DNA of 27,787 nt from a virus, in IMG/VR virus record IMGVR_UViG_3300035698_001800, positions 1 to 27,787 of that record, one strand, 5' to 3'. Below the pieces are notes generated by a model. It searched no databases and was not told where the DNA came from. It saw nothing but the letters and a program-made list of their open reading frames with translations. Of this stretch, positions 10,228 through 27,144 are shown piece after piece. Each line of letters begins with the position of its first letter. Position 1 is the first letter of the stretch. The position numbers were made by a program, and so were the translations under genes.

Positions 10228-11757
10228 TCACCATCCTAATATTGTTCCTACTCCTAATAAGTCCACACCTAATCGCCAGAATTCACCGCCGCCCACATCA
10301 TAGGTCGGCTCGAATTGAAGTTCTGTTCGTACTAATTGCCCTGATTTATCCAGCCATTTATGCCTTATTTTACTGAGTTGAAAAGCCGTGTCAATTCCCC
10401 ATGTATTCAAGTCTAATGTAACCTGGTCAAACAATTCAAGATCAAATTGAATGGTTGGTCTATCTTCTACAAATCCTTTAGGAAATATGGGGTTAGCCAG
10501 CATAAAACCACCCAAGAAAGTCGAGAAGTCTCGCGCAACATTCGTATCTTGAAGCCATGCAAGGTCTAAGTTAAACGCCTTTGGGTTTGTTAAATATCCT
10601 TCTCCCTCACTAATTATCTCTGCCACATCAGGAGACTCAATCGGCTTTCCTCTGACTTGTAAAAGAGTTAGATACCCTATATTAGCATTATTATTCGTTA
10701 TTGTTGTTTTAGATGTTTCAGCAAAGTCAGAAAACGAAACAGTACAATCTCCTGTAATATTTACTCCGCCGCCATCTTCCTGTGTGTTTACCGTCCAGTC
10801 GGTATTTGCTAACGGAGTAACTATATCAATAGCAGGCACATCGTTTCCATCGTAAGTATGATATGCCCAAACGGTGTAAGAATCTCCACTTCCGCTAATA
10901 GATGGTATCTCGTTCAGTGTCCATATAACCTGTAATGCTTGCTCTACTTTGGGATATGCTTGAATGCCAACAATATTCCTGGTAAACTTTCCTGGTTGTG
11001 GGATGCTAATGTCTTTTAATAATTCATCTTCTGTGAGTGTTGTTACCGGAGCAACATCTCGATGACGGCTGTAATAAGTCAACTTTCCGTCCCTTGCTAC
11101 AAATACAAAGCCCATTCCTGCTTCCGATAAGCTCTCAATCTCACCCTTAGCTTTTACCTTTGGTGCCCACCAATAGTCAATGTTATCCGGGCCAACATCT
11201 AATGCTCTGCCCCAAATAGTAGGCCATGCCACATAATCCAGTATTGCTCCAATCGCTGTATCAGCGGTTATATCTTCCTGAATTGCTGCCCGTACATCCG
11301 CTTCCTGAAGAAAACTCCATGCACCTTTTATGATAAGATCAACCGTTCCTCTTCTTCCATAAGGAATCATCTCGTCAAGTTTTCCAGTAAATACGGGATA
11401 GTTTTCTCCTGCCGTTCCGTTCTTTACTTTAATCTGTACTTTCTTTCCTGACTCCAAATTTCCGTATAAAGCACCCGCGGCATTATAAGGATCATACCTG
11501 CCAGTGTCGTTATAGAGTCTGATCACCGCCTCTCCGATGGGCATTCTTTCAAATCCGTCTGCTTTAGGTCTGATGTAATAATCTCTTCCTCTTGATGACT
11601 GGAAATCATAAGCGTAAGGCGCTTCATTCTGCCCATCAAATAAGTCGTCATCATCCCAATCAACTTCCATACTCCATAATAAGTTAGTGGTAGTAGTAAC
11701 TCCATATTTAAAAGTAGAATACTTGCTTGGCGTTGATCCCCAACCGTATTTCGTCAT
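10228..11757 (-). CDS. Tail tip or baseplate hub-like protein, 509 aa
   Basis: It directly follows the tape measure gene (ATGA overlap), where distal-tail and hub proteins are encoded. The sequence is beta-rich: V-F-T-G-K-L-D-E-M near 128 is the common strand of hub domains, and A-D-T-A-I-G-A-I-L-D-Y-V-A-W followed by G-M-G-F-V-F-V-A-R-D-G-K-L-T-Y-Y-S-R fits gp27/Tal-like domains that join tube to tip. Residues 310-385 look like an inserted beta domain. The N-terminal segment (W-S-M-E-V-D-W-D-D-D-D-L-F-D) is acidic. It could combine Dit and Tal roles; a structure search would decide. Confidence 0.7.
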   Translation of the reverse strand: MTKYGWGSTPSKYSTFKYGVTTTTNLLWSMEVDWDDDDLFDGQNEAPYAYDFQSSRGRDYYIRPKADGFERMPIGEAVIRLYNDTGRYDPYNAAGALYGNLESGKKVQIKVKNGTAGENYPVFTGKLDEMIPYGRRGTVDLIIKGAWSFLQEADVRAAIQEDITADTAIGAILDYVAWPTIWGRALDVGPDNIDYWWAPKVKAKGEIESLSEAGMGFVFVARDGKLTYYSRHRDVAPVTTLTEDELLKDISIPQPGKFTRNIVGIQAYPKVEQALQVIWTLNEIPSISGSGDSYTVWAYHTYDGNDVPAIDIVTPLANTDWTVNTQEDGGGVNITGDCTVSFSDFAETSKTTITNNNANIGYLTLLQVRGKPIESPDVAEIISEGEGYLTNPKAFNLDLAWLQDTNVARDFSTFLGGFMLANPIFPKGFVEDRPTIQFDLELFDQVTLDLNTWGIDTAFQLSKIRHKWLDKSGQLVRTELQFEPTYDVGGGEFWRLGVDLLGVGTILGW

Positions 11758-13361
11758 ACTGCTTGCCTCATGGCACTTAGAATAATTGGAGTTAATACCC
11801 TTTCGGCATTTGCCATATCAGATAAGGATACAACCGAGTGCATGTGAATTGTTATATTAGCACCACCAAGTTTATTATTAGGCGTGATATATCCAGAATT
11901 ACCCCCCATAGTAAGCATTTCCGGCCCTCTTTCGCCTACAAGATAACTACCGCCTGCTGATACAGAGCCGCCTGATGCACGACCCCAATGATAAGATTGC
12001 GCAGTGGTAAGAGCAACAGGTGCTGATGGGCCAGCATACGCTGCACCTGTAATAGAAACAGTCGGTAGATTTCGAGACGATACGCCAAGTGCGGTTCTTG
12101 CTGCAACAGCATCCGCAGCTAATCGCCCTAATTCTACACCAGCATTAATAAGAGACTGAGGAATTTTTATGTCTGGGATTTTAATCTCTGTTCCAAAAAC
12201 CGTATTAATTATATTTGCAATATCTGTCAATATGTTATGTATGCCAATTTTCAAATTGAACATAACTTCTAAAACATTGTTTTTCATATTGGCAAACCAC
12301 AATTTTACGTTAGTAATAACCACCTCGATTCCAAGCCAAACATTATGGATTGCCCAGCCAAATCTCTTTGTTGTATTCATAAAATCTGTATTGGCTCTAT
12401 CCATCCAGTCTCTTAGATTTAGAAACCACCCGTCAATTTTTGAAAACTCTTTTCCTACGTCATCAGATGAAGCATCACCGCCCAAAGCAATCTCCCAAGC
12501 TCTTTCCCAGTCTTTGGATAGTAATGCTGTCAATACCCCAATCACCCCACTCTCTTCATCTCCGATGATCTTTTCAAGTCCATCAAGTAAATCGGTTATC
12601 CCCTGCTGAACTTCTGGATTGTCCCATGCCTCCAAAAGTTTTTCTGTTATAGTTTCTAATACTGGGCGCAATCTGTCACCAATGGAAACCTTTAGATTAT
12701 CTACATTAGCCTTCAATCTTGCCATGTTAGCGGCAGCACCCTCACCTTGCTCGCCTACTATCTTCATTGTCTTTGCACCTTCTTCCATTGTGGCAGTCAT
12801 AAAGGCGGTTTCACGAGTCATTCCCGCTTCAGCCTCCATGAGTTCTAAAATACGCTCACGTACTTTTCCTGAAGAGATACCAAAGTTGTCAAGTCTGGGG
12901 ATGGATTGATTCGCTAACATGAGTGCAAATGCTTCTGCGGAATCTGTTGCAGTCATACCCATAGCAGATCCTAATTGCGTTGACATCTCAACCAATTTCG
13001 CTGACTCTTCAGATGTATCCGCAAGTCCCATAGCCACAAGTTTGTTGCTTGCTTGCATGAGGTCTGCGTCATTCAACATGCCACGAGAAGCGACCCGAAG
13101 GTCTTTTATCATTATGTCTGAGTTCTCACCTATGCTATCAGAAAGGGAGTCAAATGTCTTTCTCAGCTTCTCAACATTAGCAGATTCTTTTGCCAAATCA
13201 TAAGCTACTTTTCCGATAACAACACCACTTGCTATAACAGCAGCCCCAGCAGCGGCAGCACCAATACCCAACTTCTTAATAACACTATCAAGCCCCTTCA
13301 TTTTCTTAGAGGCTTTGTCGGTTGCTTTTATGACAACTTCAATTATGTTTTTACTTGCCAT
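11754..13361 (-). CDS. Tape measure protein
   Basis: 535 residues. It opens with a basic helical part (V-V-I-K-A-T-D-K-A-S-K-K-M-K-G-L) typical of tape measures, then a hydrophobic stretch at about 32-50 (I-G-A-A-A-A-G-A-A-V-I-A-S-G). Long helical and amphipathic regions follow, with more hydrophobic parts near 350-410. The C-terminal motif G-G-S-Y-L-V-G-E-R-G-P-E-M-L-T is a hallmark of the family. With the known ratio of about 1.5 A per residue, the tail would be near 80 nm, short for a siphovirus. It is preceded by the gpG/gpGT genes, the classic order. Confidence 0.92.
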   Translation of the reverse strand: MASKNIIEVVIKATDKASKKMKGLDSVIKKLGIGAAAAGAAVIASGVVIGKVAYDLAKESANVEKLRKTFDSLSDSIGENSDIMIKDLRVASRGMLNDADLMQASNKLVAMGLADTSEESAKLVEMSTQLGSAMGMTATDSAEAFALMLANQSIPRLDNFGISSGKVRERILELMEAEAGMTRETAFMTATMEEGAKTMKIVGEQGEGAAANMARLKANVDNLKVSIGDRLRPVLETITEKLLEAWDNPEVQQGITDLLDGLEKIIGDEESGVIGVLTALLSKDWERAWEIALGGDASSDDVGKEFSKIDGWFLNLRDWMDRANTDFMNTTKRFGWAIHNVWLGIEVVITNVKLWFANMKNNVLEVMFNLKIGIHNILTDIANIINTVFGTEIKIPDIKIPQSLINAGVELGRLAADAVAARTALGVSSRNLPTVSITGAAYAGPSAPVALTTAQSYHWGRASGGSVSAGGSYLVGERGPEMLTMGGNSGYITPNNKLGGANITIHMHSVVSLSDMANAERVLTPIILSAMRQAV

Positions 13362-21368: not shown

Positions 21369-21451
21369 ACTCCAGCCGTACACTGCTCCGCTGTTCCTAC
21401 TATTGCTATTGCATTGTGCCCTGTTCTGAATGACGGTCTGTTACTTCCCAT
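21365..21451 (-). CDS. Possible 28-aa mini-gene in the capsid leader
   Basis: ATG 21451 has a strong AAGGAGAGATT before it and the frame ends in TGA overlapping the next ATG (ATGA). The peptide starts M-G-S-N-R-P-S-F-R-T-G and looks like the opening of a beta-rich phage head protein, so it may be the leftover of a truncated gene, or a coupling leader for 21368-20889. Confidence 0.45.
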   Translation of the reverse strand: MGSNRPSFRTGHNAIAIVGTAEQCTAGV

Positions 21452-21472
21452 AATCTCTCCTTAATAAATAAA

Positions 21473-21495
21473 GCCCACTCCATGAAGGAGCGGGC
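21473..21495 (-). terminator. Terminator or attenuator in the capsid leader
   Basis: In minus-strand RNA GCCCGCUCC pairs with GGAGUGGGC, nine pairs with one G-U, loop UUCAU, followed by UUUAUUUAUU. The G-U pair would be an A-C mismatch on the other strand, so it works on minus-strand RNA. It lies between the promoter at 21584-21544 and the capsid cluster. Confidence 0.7.
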
Positions 21496-21516
21496 AATTT
21501 GACGGCTCTTAATTAT

Positions 21517-21534
21517 GCGATCCCGAAGGATGGC
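21517..21534 (-). promoter_or_regulatory. UUCG-tetraloop hairpin in the capsid leader RNA
   Basis: GCCAUCC and GGAUCGC pair around a UUCG loop closed by C-G, with one C-C mismatch. It sits directly at the 5' end of the transcript from the 21584-21544 promoter and before the attenuator-like hairpin. Confidence 0.5.
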
Positions 21535-21543
21535 TGTCTAAAT

Positions 21544-21584
21544 ATTATATCATATATTATACCGTTTTTCTATCCATCTTACAA
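21544..21584 (-). promoter_or_regulatory. Promoter ahead of the capsid cluster
   Basis: TTGTAA (21584-21579), a 17-bp spacer and a perfect TATAAT (21561-21556) are seen on the minus strand. A second TGATATAAT (extended -10) follows at 21552-21544. Start points would be near 21549 or 21537. The -35 lies inside the small 30-aa gene. Whether it is used early, late or internally is not shown. Confidence 0.6.
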
Positions 21585-21642
21585 CCTGCAATAATGCCCT
21601 GCGCAGCATCTTGAAGAACTCCTCCCATTCTCTGTCATTCAT
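21550..21642 (-). CDS. Small amphipathic protein, 30 aa
   Basis: ATG 21642 overlaps the stop of the gp10-like gene as ATGA. The 30-residue product (M-N-D-R-E-W-E-E-F-F-K-M-L-R-R) is one amphipathic helix ending R-W-I-E-K-R-Y-N-I. Short proteins of this type occur after head genes in other phages. Its last codons coincide with the -10 region of the next promoter. Confidence 0.6.
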   Translation of the reverse strand: MNDREWEEFFKMLRRALLQVVRWIEKRYNI

Positions 21643-22058
21643 CTTATTATTCTCTTCACCATATTCTCAAAGAATTTATTTACTGCGTCTTGAGCTTTCC
21701 TGACAACCGCCTGCAAAGTATACCAACCAGTTGCCGTGTGTGTTCTTGTCTGAGGCCCACCCTTGCCCGGTACTTTCTTATCACTTATCACCCACGGAGC
21801 GTAAGGGGTTGGGGATCCAATCGTGCCAACAACATCCCTACCAATAGTTTTTACTTTCGTGTTTATCCCTCTTCCAAGATTGCCAGTTCTTTTATATGTG
21901 CTTCCAAATGGAGCCGCTGGATAAGACGGTACTTTTCCATGAACATAATGAGCAGCTTTCCTGGTTGTCTTTTCAATTTCCCTTGTTAGCTTAGGATGAG
22001 ATAATCGCATTAGCTTTGCTGTTAATTTCTTAACTCCGAATATTTTAAAGTAGTTCAT
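21639..22058 (-). CDS. HK97 gp10-like head-tail connector protein
   Basis: 139 residues, overlapping the minor head gene as ATGA. Family features are the basic N-terminal helices, T-R-K-A-A-H-Y-V-H-G-K-V-P, then P-A-A-P-F-G-S-T-Y-K-R-T-G-N-L-G-R-G-I and the strand V-V-G-T-I-G-S-P-T-P-Y-A-P-W-V. These proteins help finish the neck or tail attachment. The order portal, minor head, gp10 family is usual. Confidence 0.8.
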   Translation of the reverse strand: MNYFKIFGVKKLTAKLMRLSHPKLTREIEKTTRKAAHYVHGKVPSYPAAPFGSTYKRTGNLGRGINTKVKTIGRDVVGTIGSPTPYAPWVISDKKVPGKGGPQTRTHTATGWYTLQAVVRKAQDAVNKFFENMVKRIIR

Positions 22059-23473
22059 GGCTCATTCACCACTGGTTGAATCCAACAACGGCAGTTATGT
22101 GTTATAATCCCATTAGTAGAATATAAACCATAATCATCACATTGGAGGTCGTACACATGCCCGCTAAAATCGAAATTCCTAATCTTGACAATCTTCTCAA
22201 AAGATACGTTGCCGGAGAACCTGAGCAAAAACTTGCTCGTGAGACTGGTATCAATCGTGCTACTTTCAGGAGCAGACTCATTGAATACGGCATTAACCCC
22301 AGAGGAAACTCCGAAGCTGAAAAAATCAGATGGTCTAAAATGACACCTGATCAGAGATCTTATCAAGTTAATGCGGCGCATGATGCCGTCAGAGGAAAAA
22401 CCAAAAGTATTGAGTGGAAGCGCAAGCACGCTATTACCAGAGAGCGCACCTTGACTGGCGCAGTTCCTATTGAGGCTATCCTCGCGAATCAACTTATTGG
22501 TTCTGGATTTAGTATTACTCAGCAAAAGGCTCTTGGGATATATAACATTGATATCGCCGTGAATATTCCTTCCATCGCTATAGAAATCTTCGGGGGTGGA
22601 TGGCATGCTTACGGAGCTCATAAGATCAGATTTTTCAAACGCAGTAATTATATCTTCAATCATGGCTGGTCTTTGTTGGTCATTTGGATTGACAAGAGGC
22701 GCTATCCCCTCAACATCAACGGCATAGACAAGGTCATTTCTTTTATCAAGCAATCCAGCATTAACCCAACCTCTATTGGTCAATATGGGGTGGTTCTCGG
22801 TAACGGTAATATTGCTCCCGTTTCCAGTTGTTATCTCAACACACCCGCCATCGTAAAAAGACTTTGCTGCAGCTTTTACTTCACCGACTGGTAAAACTTC
22901 GTTTCCTGGCAATACACAATTAACATGTGCTGGTGGTCTATCATAAGAGCTACTATCATAATTACTAATGAACATAGCGTTGAGCGGTACTACCTGTCCA
23001 TCCAGACCCATACAAATAGGGCATACGTCCATCCCGGCAGTCATCCACTTCTTACTATCAACCACCTCACTTGCTTTCCACGTTTCCAGATTCCCGCCTG
23101 CATAAGCGTTAGTAACTTCTGTAACTGCGATTCTCTTTGCCCTGACCTTACCGAACACTTGAAGAAACTGCGGATCTTTTTCTAATGCGCTCAATGGCTC
23201 ACCACTCGCAACCCATTCGGAAACTTTGTCTTGAATCATCTTTTGTGTTGAAGAGCCTATTACTGATGTTTCTATTAATGTATGATCTTTTGCCCAATTT
23301 ACAACTGCATCATTGACCAGCCCCCAATGAACGCCAATTCCAACGGCGGCTTCTTTTCCCATCTTTACAGCCAGCGCGGTTATAAGCGGTAATAGGATCT
23401 CATACAGTATGTCGGCTTCATCCATCCAGAAGAAGCCATCAAAGACTGATTTTAGTTCAGGCTTATCGATCAT
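22055..23473 (-). CDS. Mu gpF-like minor head protein precursor with intein
   Basis: The 472-residue precursor consists of N-extein 1-185, intein 186-460 and C-extein 461-472. The extein belongs to the Mu gpF-type head morphogenesis proteins: K-R-I-A-V-T-E-V-T-N-A-Y, W-M-T-A-G-M-D-V-C-P-I-C, then D-R-P-P-A-H-V-N. After splicing, H-V-N joins C-R-C-W-I-Q-P, restoring the conserved H-x-N-C-R-C motif with the first of its two Cys at the splice point (C461 as +1). The mature protein would be 197 residues. It follows the portal and two small genes, the usual place. Unspliced protein would lack the motif, so splicing should be needed for function. A plus-strand nuclease gene overlaps the intein. Confidence 0.92.
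   Translation of the reverse strand: MIDKPELKSVFDGFFWMDEADILYEILLPLITALAVKMGKEAAVGIGVHWGLVNDAVVNWAKDHTLIETSVIGSSTQKMIQDKVSEWVASGEPLSALEKDPQFLQVFGKVRAKRIAVTEVTNAYAGGNLETWKASEVVDSKKWMTAGMDVCPICMGLDGQVVPLNAMFISNYDSSSYDRPPAHVNCVLPGNEVLPVGEVKAAAKSFYDGGCVEITTGNGSNITVTENHPILTNRGWVNAGLLDKRNDLVYAVDVEGIAPLVNPNDQQRPAMIEDIITAFEKSDLMSSVSMPSTPEDFYSDGRNIHGDINVIYPKSLLLSNTKSRTNKLIREDSLNRNCASQGALSGNSVLALPLNTFGFSSDGIMRRINLIRSLIRCHFRPSDFFSFGVSSGVNAVFNESAPESSTIDTSLTSKFLLRFSGNVSFEKIVKIRNFDFSGHVYDLQCDDYGLYSTNGIITHNCRCWIQPVVNEP
22100..22149 (+). promoter_or_regulatory. Promoter and SD of the antisense nuclease gene
   Basis: The plus strand reads TGTTATAAT at 22100-22108, an extended -10 with perfect TATAAT; no well-spaced -35 is seen. 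GGAGGT at 22144-22149 lies 7 nt before the ATG. On the intein strand the -10 is part of the codons for I-I-T of block G (G-I-I-T-H-N), and the SD is part of D-L-Q of block F. Thus the control signals sit in conserved protein motifs. Confidence 0.55.
22157..22894 (+). CDS. Vsr/DUF559-like homing endonuclease, antisense inside the intein
   Basis: The only plus-strand gene in the window, 245 residues from ATG 22157 (GGAGGT 7 nt upstream; a TTG at 22142 is the alternative). Residues 10-45 form a helix-turn-helix (Y-V-A-G-E-P-E-Q-K-L-A-R-E-T-G-I-N-R-A-T). A basic linker with N-S-E-A-E-K-I-R-W follows. Residues 110-178 form the nuclease: N-I-D132-I-A-V, I-A-I-E143-I-F-G-G-G-W-H150, then R-F-F-K-R-S-N-Y-I-F-N-H-G-W-S-L-L-V-I-W. 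This is the EDxHD/Vsr-like fold pattern, known in I-Bth0305I-type homing enzymes and in Vsr-like nucleases near split inteins. The 65-residue tail lies opposite intein blocks A-B and has no known domain. It lies fully inside the intein, so it is presumably the homing enzyme of this element. Confidence 0.85.
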   Translation: MPAKIEIPNLDNLLKRYVAGEPEQKLARETGINRATFRSRLIEYGINPRGNSEAEKIRWSKMTPDQRSYQVNAAHDAVRGKTKSIEWKRKHAITRERTLTGAVPIEAILANQLIGSGFSITQQKALGIYNIDIAVNIPSIAIEIFGGGWHAYGAHKIRFFKRSNYIFNHGWSLLVIWIDKRRYPLNINGIDKVISFIKQSSINPTSIGQYGVVLGNGNIAPVSSCYLNTPAIVKRLCCSFYFTDW

Positions 23474-23664
23474 TCAAAATATTCTTTAGTCAACTTTGCA
23501 ATTAGCTCTTTTTTGGTTATGTCTTTAGACTTTTCCCAATGATCATCTATTGGGTTGTCCTTGCTAACATTCATAGATTTTAGACCAACCTTAGTCATAT
23601 CACAAACATAAACTCGCTTGTCATCTACCAATCCAACAAACACACCTTTTATTACAGACATCAT
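23470..23664 (-). CDS. Hypothetical protein between portal and minor head genes, 64 aa
   Basis: The start is the first of two ATG codons and the stop overlaps the minor head start as ATGA. The N-terminal half is strand-rich (V-I-K-G-V-F-V-G-L-V-D-D-K-R-V-Y-V-C-D) and the end is helical and basic (K-K-E-L-I-A-K-L-T-K-E). No family recognised. Its place in the head cluster suggests late expression. Confidence 0.7.
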   Translation of the reverse strand: MMSVIKGVFVGLVDDKRVYVCDMTKVGLKSMNVSKDNPIDDHWEKSKDITKKELIAKLTKEYFE

Positions 23665-23665
23665 C

Positions 23666-23875
23666 CTATCCTTTCTTAATTAAATTAGTTAGCTTTACAA
23701 TCACGTTATTGAGAAAGTCTAATATAGCAGTAAACAACGGCTCTACTGATTTATAAAAAGCCCTCTTCAACTCGTCTACTGCTATTTCAGATTCACTTCT
23801 ACCGCTAAATAATCCTTCGCTATCCCAATATGCCACTTCCTTATCAGTCAAGCACCAAAATGGTTTCTTTGTCAT
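23666..23875 (-). CDS. Hypothetical protein after the portal gene, 69 aa
   Basis: ATG 23875 overlaps the portal stop as ATGA. The C-terminal half is an amphipathic to hydrophobic helix (S-V-E-P-L-F-T-A-I-L-D-F-L-N-N-V-I-V-K-L). It might bind membranes or pack in the neck; function unknown. Confidence 0.7.
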   Translation of the reverse strand: MTKKPFWCLTDKEVAYWDSEGLFSGRSESEIAVDELKRAFYKSVEPLFTAILDFLNNVIVKLTNLIKKG

Positions 23876-25254
23876 AATTTCTCGCTTTCTGCTTCGTCCA
23901 ATACCCGACCCTTCTGTTTCCTCAAGTGTGTGACCATCTTTTTCATTACCTTATTCTCGTCCTCCGTTCTATTTCCTTCGCCTAATAGCTTAGATTCCAG
24001 GATGTCGATTATCTGTTTAGTTGCGCCCTCTTCTAATACTGGTACGTCAAACTGATTAAGCGTTCTTATGAGGACATCCCCACCACTCAAGCGTGGTAAG
24101 TTGATCCCTGCTCTAAACTCATTGACCGTGATACCGCCTGCTGTTAGAGCAGCCTGATAACGCTCCCACAACTTCTGAGCCTCTTCCTGATAAGCAGCAA
24201 CCTTAGAGAAGTCCCACTTGACGTAGATGTTATCTCCAAAGTCTGGAACTAGTCTCGCATTGATCGTATCATCATAATGCTGGAACATAGCGGATAGTGT
24301 ATCCTGCCACCATGCTTTTCTTGCCTCCGCGTAATTAGAATATGTGCTTCGCTTCAATCCTACCGCAGCACCAACCAAAATAGGCGGCACATCCATGACC
24401 ATACAAATGCGAGCTTCGTTTCTCTCGTCAAGAGTTTCAAAACCCATCTCTGAGAATGAAAGTCCTGTTTTCTGGAATTCAGCATCAGCGTCCAACACTG
24501 CCGGGTCAATCCAATTCTTAGAGCCGCCATATCGCTTGCGCCATCTCCTGCGTATTGCCGTTACCTGTGCTTCCTGTAAGTGTTGTTTAGTCTTTAGGAT
24601 TCCCGGTGGTATGCCGCCACGTTCCCAGAACATCTTTATAAAGTCAGTTGTTGAATTATCCACATCCCCGACCCTTGCCGCTACTGCTGCAGGAGGCCAG
24701 CCCTGATACATATTCAACGGATCGAAGTTCTTGAATACCAGTACATCTTCTTTTGCTATCGGTATCTTTACATTCGTTCCTGCAATCTCATACTCATAAT
24801 AAGATATAAATTCAGTAGATGATTTTACTGGTCTGATCCAATCAGGTCTTAGTGGCCACAATCCAACCACACGTCCAGCAGCACTTCTTTCTTTCTCCCA
24901 ATACGCCGTGCCTGCCAAGTCTTCATAGATCACATTGGCAGACCAGAAATCATACTCAGCCATTTCACTATTAGGTTTCTGGATGAGTTGTCTAAGTGGA
25001 TGATCAGGAAGCTCCTGGTCAGTTCTCTTATCGTACACCTTCAACGCTATCTGACTTGCCGAGTTAGCAGTCTTAGCAACACATGCAAATATAAGTTCAT
25101 TCTTACGGTATCCCTCCGTTGCCATCGTTTTGAAATCAACCTCTGGATATGATGGCTTTCCTTCGTCCCACCCTTTTACCCGTGTTGCTTGTAATACCTT
25201 CTCCCCTCTCATTAGAATATCAAGCCCTAATCTTAACCGATCTATTATATTCAT
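23872..25254 (-). CDS. Phage portal protein (HK97 family)
   Basis: 460 residues with the family order: Y-R-K-N-E-L-I-F-A-C-V-A-K-T-A-N-S-A-S, H-P-L-R-Q-L-I-Q-K-P-N, G-T-A-Y-W-E, G-L-W-P-L-R-P-D-W-I-R-P, D-V-L-V-F-K-N-F-D-P, M-V-M-D-V-P-P-I-L-V-G, and Y-S-N-Y-A-E-A-R-K-A-W-W-Q-D-T-L. The dodecameric ring sits at one capsid vertex and is the DNA channel that docks the terminase. Near the end G-G-I-T-V-N-E-F-R-A is usual for the family. Confidence 0.93.
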   Translation of the reverse strand: MNIIDRLRLGLDILMRGEKVLQATRVKGWDEGKPSYPEVDFKTMATEGYRKNELIFACVAKTANSASQIALKVYDKRTDQELPDHPLRQLIQKPNSEMAEYDFWSANVIYEDLAGTAYWEKERSAAGRVVGLWPLRPDWIRPVKSSTEFISYYEYEIAGTNVKIPIAKEDVLVFKNFDPLNMYQGWPPAAVAARVGDVDNSTTDFIKMFWERGGIPPGILKTKQHLQEAQVTAIRRRWRKRYGGSKNWIDPAVLDADAEFQKTGLSFSEMGFETLDERNEARICMVMDVPPILVGAAVGLKRSTYSNYAEARKAWWQDTLSAMFQHYDDTINARLVPDFGDNIYVKWDFSKVAAYQEEAQKLWERYQAALTAGGITVNEFRAGINLPRLSGGDVLIRTLNQFDVPVLEEGATKQIIDILESKLLGEGNRTEDENKVMKKMVTHLRKQKGRVLDEAESEKL

Positions 25255-25832: not shown

Positions 25833-25911
25833 TTATACCTCCGCTAAAAAGAATGTCTGGCAAGTCATCAAACTCTACACCACCATTTTGCCATTAGACA
25901 TTGATACCTCC
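25825..25911 (-). repeat. Direct repeat of an 18-bp ribosome-site/start segment
   Basis: GGAGGTATCAATGTCTAA at the large terminase end (25911-25894) recurs as GGAGGTATAAATGTCTAA at 25842-25825, where it is the SD and start of the next gene. The terminase frame is open for 22 codons after its stop and ends with the second copy, again as F-S-G-G-I-N-V-stop. The first copy also gives an ATG with 8 codons. This looks like a tandem duplication or a decayed start site. Confidence 0.6.
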
Positions 25912-27144
25912 ATAAAGGGAAAATCCTATACCGCTTATATTATACCTTAATGCGTCAAGTCTGTGGTAATCGGCTTTATCTTTTATCTTCTCGGTTGGCT
26001 GACCGTATTCATTCAGCACCCGGCTATAAGTTCCAAGTTCGTCAAGTAGTCCCTTGCATGTGTTGAATACAAATAGCCTGCGTGTTTTGAATAGCTCAAT
26101 CACCCTATCGATGCCAGCTTCTACGCTGACAATCGGACTTTCCTGAACAGGCACACCTTCAGCGTTCCAGTCCATTCTCTCCTGCGTTTCAGACTTAGCA
26201 CCACCAATCCACCTTACTGTATTCTCATGTTTATAAGATAATGCAATCACAGCTTTCTCTTTGGTTGTCTTACCACCCATCATCATGCAGCGGTAGATAT
26301 AATAACAATGAGTATTTGGATCTTCTGCAATCCATAACACCGCCGTATGAACAGCACCAAAGTCAATACCTACGTATCGCGGCCACTCTGGGGGAATGTC
26401 AAACGGTTTTATCTTCTGTGTAGTTTCATCATAGTCTGAATAGATCAAGCCTGCAGGGCATTCAAACGTGCCATCATAGAACATGTGAAACTTCCATGCA
26501 GGCAGGATCCGCTTCATGCGCAAGTATTCTTTCATTGGAAATTGCGGATTCATTATTGACTTAAAGTTAATTACATCAAAGTCCTTATCGCCTGCCGCCC
26601 ACCTATCATACACTTCTTGTTTTAGCCAACCCAAGTTATAAGGAGTAGTTGTACCTAATACCCTGGCCCCATAAAGAGATCCACGCCTTTGCACCGCTTC
26701 CCATGCACCCAACTTGAATTTATCCTGACCGCACTCGTCCATCCACCCACCTTTGATTGTTGCAGCTTCAAGTCCCTCCTCTGATGAGGCAGATCGCAAT
26801 ATTATCCTTGTTTTCTTATCTTCTATTTTGTATAACACTCTATCTGATGCCTGATAATCCCATCCGGGTAAATAAACCCCAAATACACTCTTAAGCTCTG
26901 GTAACATCTTCATCTTGAAAAGATCGTATGTGGCTGTTACTGCCAGGTAGTCCCCTTGTCCGCGAGTTTCTATTTCTCTATTTAGCCACCATGGGCCATA
27001 ACAGGTTTTCCCTGACTGCGTTCCTGCAATAATGAATGGGAAACGCGCCTTGCTTTCGTGTGCGCTGGTCTGTCCAAGATGATACCTTATTTTATATTCA
27101 ATACCATCCGCTGTTTCTATTTGAGTTATAAACTCAGTTGTCAT
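25894..27144 (-). CDS. terL: Terminase large subunit
   Basis: 416 residues. Walker A is A40-G-T-Q-S-G-K-T47, the Walker B region is G-G-W-M-D136-E137, and the coupling segment is L-G-T-T-T-P-Y (163-169). The RNase-H-like nuclease begins at Y-V-G-I-D261-F-G, and the last acidic motif is D-A-L-R-Y near 400. It is therefore complete with ATPase and nuclease parts, cutting concatemers and pumping DNA through the portal. The Shine-Dalgarno before ATG 27144 is weak; it may depend on upstream translation. A 22-codon open stretch after the stop ends in a repeat of its last codons. Confidence 0.93.
   Translation of the reverse strand: MTTEFITQIETADGIEYKIRYHLGQTSAHESKARFPFIIAGTQSGKTCYGPWWLNREIETRGQGDYLAVTATYDLFKMKMLPELKSVFGVYLPGWDYQASDRVLYKIEDKKTRIILRSASSEEGLEAATIKGGWMDECGQDKFKLGAWEAVQRRGSLYGARVLGTTTPYNLGWLKQEVYDRWAAGDKDFDVINFKSIMNPQFPMKEYLRMKRILPAWKFHMFYDGTFECPAGLIYSDYDETTQKIKPFDIPPEWPRYVGIDFGAVHTAVLWIAEDPNTHCYYIYRCMMMGGKTTKEKAVIALSYKHENTVRWIGGAKSETQERMDWNAEGVPVQESPIVSVEAGIDRVIELFKTRRLFVFNTCKGLLDELGTYSRVLNEYGQPTEKIKDKADYHRLDALRYNISGIGFSLYGGINV

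Follow-up and report, generated by a model that had tools for sequence, protein, structure and literature searches.

Canonical full-length inteins, such as PI-SceI, PI-PfuI and TliVMA, consist of a Hint domain inserted at a conserved motif of the host protein and carry a homing nuclease inside the intein DNA, as an in-frame LAGLIDADG or HNH domain. A different catalytic fold is found in I-Bth0305I and in the EDxHD/Vsr-like nucleases, which are associated with introns or inteins; the EDxHD/Vsr-like homing enzymes found in “fractured genes”, alongside split inteins, are reported to have been described by Dassa in 2009. These enzymes are encoded by separate genes that sit in introns or between the halves of split genes and are not known to overlap the splicing element. 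The closest precedent found for a hidden nuclease gene is provided by the ShiLan element and the Pacc40 insertion (Arsenault, Gosselin and Gogarten 2025, PMC11855218), in-frame, stop-free insertions into phage genes that encode an HNH homing nuclease on the same strand but in a shifted frame, carry a methylase gene and do not splice. Inteins in MuF or minor head proteins have been recognized as such in phages vB-Eco-KMB36 (PMC11162368), UPWr_S1-5 (PMC8425127) and Snoke (MK931441), and a polymorphic 0.8-kb minor-head intein with a homing nuclease has been described in a cryoconite phage (PMC7468147).

The locus described here lies in a 27,787-nucleotide stretch of viral DNA (IMG/VR record IMGVR_UViG_3300035698_001800, referred to below as the window). 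It shares with canonical inteins the Hint domain, the insertion into a conserved motif and the presence of a nuclease gene within the intein DNA, but that nuclease is a protein of its own, encoded on the opposite strand, and in no case a part of the intein. It shares with I-Bth0305I and the fractured-gene nucleases the fold of the catalytic domain and the association with a splicing element; it differs in that nuclease and splicing element overlap completely, in antisense, and that the intein is not split. Like ShiLan and Pacc40, it interrupts a phage gene in frame and without stop codons and conceals a homing-type nuclease in a different frame; it fails the ShiLan-type criteria, however, being antisense and codon-on-codon, with a Vsr-fold nuclease and an intact Hint intein. 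The mobile intein itself is of a known kind, and it is the antisense layout that appears new.

The interrupted gene (472 codons, positions 22055-23473, minus strand) encodes a MuF-like minor head protein, as judged from Pfam and PHROG head morphogenesis families. It is preceded on the same strand by the portal (23872-25254) and terminase (25894-27144) genes and followed by genes for an HK97-gp10-like protein, the prohead protease and the capsid protein. In the 472-aa product, Pfam recognizes Phage_Mu_F at residues 79-186 (2e-7) and Intein_splicing at residues 196-460 (9.4e-13). The N-extein (residues 1-185; 22919-23473) ends in PPAHVN at a junction that is kept throughout the family, the intein runs from Cys186 to Asn460 (275 aa; 825 nt, 22094-22918), and the C-extein CRCWIQPVVNEP with its stop codon occupies 22055-22093. 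All the hallmarks of an intein are met in a single frame as an in-frame insertion in the host protein: Cys186, block B (ITVTENHPILT, 22781-22813), block F (HVYDLQ, 22142-22159) and block G, which ends in GIITHN with Asn460 and is followed by the +1 residue Cys461 (together 22091-22111). The Hint assignment is further supported by profile comparison with solved inteins and by the AlphaFold model, in which the Hint part has pLDDT above 90 and is matched by VIA to the Mtu RecA intein with a Z score of 12.7. Within the linker, intein residues ~85-130 are confidently ordered and ~132-221 are disordered. Splicing itself is inferred, as no splicing data are available. Existing annotations of such genes can mislead: the phrog_15127 “head protein” profile matches MuF residues 56-399 and extends into the intein, an annotation artefact, and several Salmonella records label the MuF-intein gene as an NAD+--asparagine ADP-ribosyltransferase.

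The plus strand of the intein carries a gene for a 245-aa protein (22157-22894) that starts with an ATG at 22157, terminates at 22892-22894 and lies wholly within the intein, covering 738 of its 825 nt. A Shine-Dalgarno sequence, GGAGGT (22144-22149), is located 7 nt upstream of the start codon. The AlphaFold model (pLDDT 89.7) shows an N-terminal helix-turn-helix, further helices and a nuclease core of the beta-beta-beta-alpha-beta type. The helix-turn-helix region (nuclease residues 10-43; 22184-22285) was matched by VIA to that of the Hin recombinase (1ijw and others, Z scores of 4.4-4.8) and is recognized as HTH_7 in relatives. The catalytic domain (residues 101-180; 22457-22696) was matched to Vsr (1cw0, Z score of 11.5 over 115 residues at 2.6 A), 3hrl (10.3) and I-Bth0305I (3r3p, 10.1), and the family profile independently retrieved I-Bth0305I (6.4e-6) and the Vsr-like 3hrl (1.7e-5) among solved structures. 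For the window protein alone, Pfam yields only MTES_1575 REase at 1e-5, below the gathering score, and a weak HTH_7; among 103 relatives, MTES_1575 is detected in 74, HTH_7 in 41 and DUF559 in 20. In the same 103 proteins, Tyr129, Asp132 and Glu143 are invariant and Glu106 is nearly so. A Foldseek search with the nuclease model gave no match at E<0.001. The Vsr/I-Bth0305I fold with its conserved acidic residues is thus shown by fold and profile comparison, with the structure itself being predicted by a model. No consensus match to a sigma-70-like promoter was found in the plus strand of the 21400-23600 interval, an absence that says little; expression of the nuclease from an antisense transcript is inferred, there being no transcription data. 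A preliminary description of the window, made from sequence alone, had called the complete intein from C186 to N460 with its +1 Cys, the 245-codon plus-strand gene with its own Shine-Dalgarno sequence, and a helix-turn-helix joined to a Vsr-like, I-Bth0305I-type core; all three calls held, and the Hint match on the minus frame and the nuclease match on the plus frame were both looked for and both found.

The two frames are aligned codon on codon, so that nuclease residue h stands opposite MuF residue 440-h. The catalytic His228 of block B is paired with nuclease Val212, and the catalytic candidates Asp132 and Glu143 of the nuclease are paired with Ile308 and Phe297 of the minus frame. Such a register raises the possibility that the plus-strand frame is merely a by-product of the intein codons, a long chance antisense frame and no gene. 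In favor of this view, codon-on-codon antisense frames are common in GC-rich genes, as exemplified by a 1066-codon plus frame at a Pseudomonas locus. Against it, the window is AT-rich by codon usage: would-be antisense stops account for 27% of its Leu and Ser codons taken together, and the probability of a stop-free antisense frame of 246 codons, calculated from the codon usage of the minus-strand genes, is ~10^-9. For comparison, 22 other genes of the window, when read antisense in this register, stay free of stops for at most 44-183 codons. The chance explanation is also contradicted by the match of the plus-strand product to I-Bth0305I/Vsr in both profile and fold and by the conservation of its start codon and Shine-Dalgarno sequence. 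Elsewhere in the window, three consecutive plus-strand frames (146, 96 and 94 aa; 12169-13203) lie antisense to a 535-aa minus-strand frame (11754-13361) that has no Pfam match; these three are probably there by chance.

The codon-on-codon register allows each codon to be judged singly, and substitutions were counted in 15 close pairs of loci, with some shared ancestry remaining inside clusters. Relative to substitutions that alter the intein but are silent in the nuclease, those altering both proteins occur at a rate of 0.17 (0.13-0.22); relative to substitutions that alter the nuclease but are silent in the intein, their rate is 0.32 (0.29-0.37). In the N-extein of MuF, used as a control, the virtual antisense frame gave 1.34, i.e. 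no apparent constraint (albeit from small counts), compared with 0.05 for MuF itself. Because substitutions are constrained in each frame, unlike in the virtual antisense control, both frames encode real proteins, and purifying selection acts on the intein and the nuclease alike. Constraint on the intein varies along its length, from 0.19-0.21 in the Hint blocks and 0.43 opposite the helix-turn-helix to near neutrality in the linker opposite nuclease residues 61-100 (NN/NS of 0.82, 95% interval 0.58-1.25). Opposite the nuclease core, NN/NS is 0.29 (0.18-0.46). The suggestion that the linker is only the antisense shadow of the nuclease therefore held in part: it is a free shadow in its middle, opposite residues 61-100, and a pure shadow is ruled out opposite the nuclease core by this constraint and by the ordered model of intein residues ~85-130. 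The strong preference for nuclease-silent changes, together with the existence of free-standing homologs (described below), led to rejection of the chance-frame explanation, which can be considered all but excluded.

The two genes are also linked through block F. The reverse complement of HVYDLQ is the TTGGAGGT...ATG of the nuclease gene, and throughout the family this ribosome-binding and start sequence stands opposite block F (H-V-Y-D/N-L-Q/E). In 156 of 172 family loci, the start codon is placed exactly opposite the first residue of block F (ATG in 127, GTG in 24 and TTG in 5), and an SD-like motif precedes it in 150 of the 172. Read from the other strand, ATG and GTG become CAT and CAC, the codons for His, and His occupies the first position of block F in 190 of 215 distinct C-terminal blocks of the family compared with none of 19 ordinary, nuclease-less inteins from bacterial genomes (Fisher 3.5e-16; one further regex match was discounted), which have Q, E, R, D, S, P or K there.

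The layout extends far beyond the window. A tblastn search with the nuclease retrieved 129 public phage records; in those inspected, the nuclease lies opposite a MuF/head morphogenesis gene, mostly with no gene annotated on its strand. From IMG/VR, 80 of 381 relatives were retained, and 19 loci came from GTDB genomes. According to the record titles, the host taxa include Gammaproteobacteria, Alphaproteobacteria, Actinomycetota, Chloroflexota, Bacillota, Cyanobacteriota, Acidobacteriota, Gemmatimonadota, Patescibacteria and others. When loci were collected by their nuclease, the gene was antisense and in the same register in all 174 loci in which both intein halves could be read in one frame. 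In the reverse search, which started from the intein and relied in part on patterns drawn solely from the N-terminal Hint block, 156 of 157 loci had the nuclease intact and in this register; the remaining one has no intein that can be read in one frame across both halves. The two overlapping sets jointly comprise 226 distinct nuclease sequences, which come from phages and prophages spanning many bacterial phyla; the antisense layout claimed for the window has held well outside it. Since the N- and C-terminal blocks are contiguous and in one frame in the 174 loci, this is not a fractured-gene or split-intein arrangement, and with the nuclease on the opposite strand in all intein-bearing loci, it is not an in-frame homing domain either. 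A full nuclease alignment of 21 rows proved too diverse for pattern scans. No nuclease-less members were found among the 156 readable intein-first loci, although the full-length confirming query favors relatives that keep the linker, and mini-inteins may have been missed. A broken plus frame opposite a conserved intein, which would have counted against the nuclease gene, is rare (L050 and L174/L175); these few loci do not refute it, because decay is expected of a homing nuclease and the gene is otherwise conserved under selection. Two loci have unusual structures: one in a Scytonema MAG (L190) has two C-terminal blocks in one frame (IVYNLTVEQ...HNC and YVYNLETETG...HNC), possibly reflecting two inteins in one gene, and in L111 (3-290 and 253-2079, minus strand) the intein halves lie in different frames opposite an intact nuclease, owing to a frameshift or mis-assembly.

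Among close relatives, the intein is present in some genomes and precisely absent from others. Salmonella phage BPS11Q3 carries it, and phage wksl3 has an uninterrupted gene with a clean site HPN^CRS, the flanks being 93.5% and 91.9% identical. Such presence or absence at one exact site among near relatives fulfills one of the criteria for a homing endonuclease. Only 58 of the 428 phage records that match the MuF gene of the window extend over 80% or more of the intein-bearing query. In E. coli phage KMB36 and the Jerseyviruses, inteins are inserted at different sites of homologous MuF proteins, each lacking that of the other. Two Guernseyvirinae MuF genes (L008 and L007) carry related antisense-nuclease inteins at TSTT^C and HPN^C, respectively, each being an empty allele for the other. 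Phages S104, TUMS_E19 and ER16 were suspected of harboring other inteins, a possibility rejected on finding that their MuF genes are of intein-less length. Two of these, the Jerseyviruses S104 and TUMS_E19, both intein-less, carry an additional, possibly mobile, minus-strand gene just upstream of MuF (L200, 561-1211; L201, 564-1217).

Taken together, these data are best explained by a homing intein whose nuclease is encoded on the opposite strand, a reading considered very likely (probability of roughly 0.86). The two genes, their fold assignments, the family-wide layout and register, selection on both frames, the start site within block F and the clean empty sites are established, and splicing, nuclease expression, cleavage and homing are inferred. 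According to this model, the MuF protein with its Hint domain, made from the minus strand, would self-splice and restore the H-x-N-C-R-C motif. The helix-turn-helix/Vsr-fold nuclease made from the plus strand would cleave the HxN^CRC codons of MuF alleles that lack the intein, whether in a co-infecting phage or in a resident prophage, and recombinational repair would then copy the intein and the nuclease jointly, with the insertion destroying the target site. With the nuclease gene confined to the intein, any conversion of an empty allele would transfer both and remove the site. The proposal that the nuclease drives the spread of the intein, including its cutting of the empty site, remains an inference.

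One alternative regards the nuclease as an independent selfish gene that inserted itself into the intein at some point, a nested parasite that spreads the locus but has no functional tie to intein mobility. It is supported by free-standing copies of the nuclease, which show that it can live without the intein. Such copies were found in two lineages, one in Acinetobacter phages (L021, 413-1345; L162, 2213-3220; and L180, the Obolenskvirus BUCT629) and the other represented by L091 (2707-3696), just downstream of, and convergent with, an intact intein-less MuF gene. These relatives, in which no intein lies opposite the nuclease, show that it is an independent gene. In a midpoint-rooted tree, the two lineages fall within separate clades of embedded nucleases (support of 0.96-0.97 at the enclosing nodes, weaker elsewhere), a placement that fits two independent escapes from the intein. 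Several observations make the nested parasite very unlikely: intein and nuclease are almost universally associated in both search directions, they share the start/splice motif, and their divergence is correlated (r of 0.69 between nuclease and Hint distances, 0.57 given MuF, compared with correlations with MuF of 0.56 and 0.50). Moreover, any cut-and-repair at the site carries both, so the distinction is a small one.

Another alternative holds that the nuclease no longer serves homing and acts on competing phages or host DNA, with the intein as its safe harbor. Phage homing nucleases are indeed capable of excluding competitors (PMC7468147), and enzymes of the Vsr/DUF559 fold include non-homing nucleases; many Vsr-fold enzymes are not homing enzymes. 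This view, too, appears very unlikely, as presence/absence polymorphism of the intein site among near relatives is a mark of homing, although the two roles can coexist.

With the homing intein remaining the preferred reading, a bolder one is also probable: these elements would form an undescribed class of inteins, in which a splicing protein and a homing nuclease have long been locked codon-on-codon in antisense, a splicing motif doubles as the ribosome-binding site and start of the nuclease, and spread has proceeded via tailed phages across many bacterial phyla. The inteins annotated in KMB36, UPWr_S1-5 and Snoke are the same inteins, with no antisense nuclease in the annotations or sections bearing on them, and the sections of PMC7468147 dealing with the cryoconite phage intein make no mention of an antisense gene. 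The literature searched, which left out a 2025 preprint on actinophage inteins (Gosselin et al.), contained no report of a nuclease encoded antisense within an intein. The novelty suggested in the preliminary description thus seems likely to stand, with priority not fully established, as that preprint could describe part of the layout for Gordonia phages or mycobacteriophages.

This arrangement adds to the few known ways in which a splicing element carries a homing nuclease and reveals a large, almost unannotated nuclease family, which has 129 records among public phages alone. One prediction for inteins is that translation initiation on the opposite strand shapes the sequence of block F. It also represents an unusually well-supported case of two enzymes with unrelated folds being encoded by opposite strands of the same codons and kept across many phyla. 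Whether natural genes can maintain sense/antisense dual coding, the question raised by Rodin and Ohno, has so far been hard to test; the 226 natural variants, along with the broken-nuclease copies and the free-standing escapees, provide a comparative data set for addressing it.
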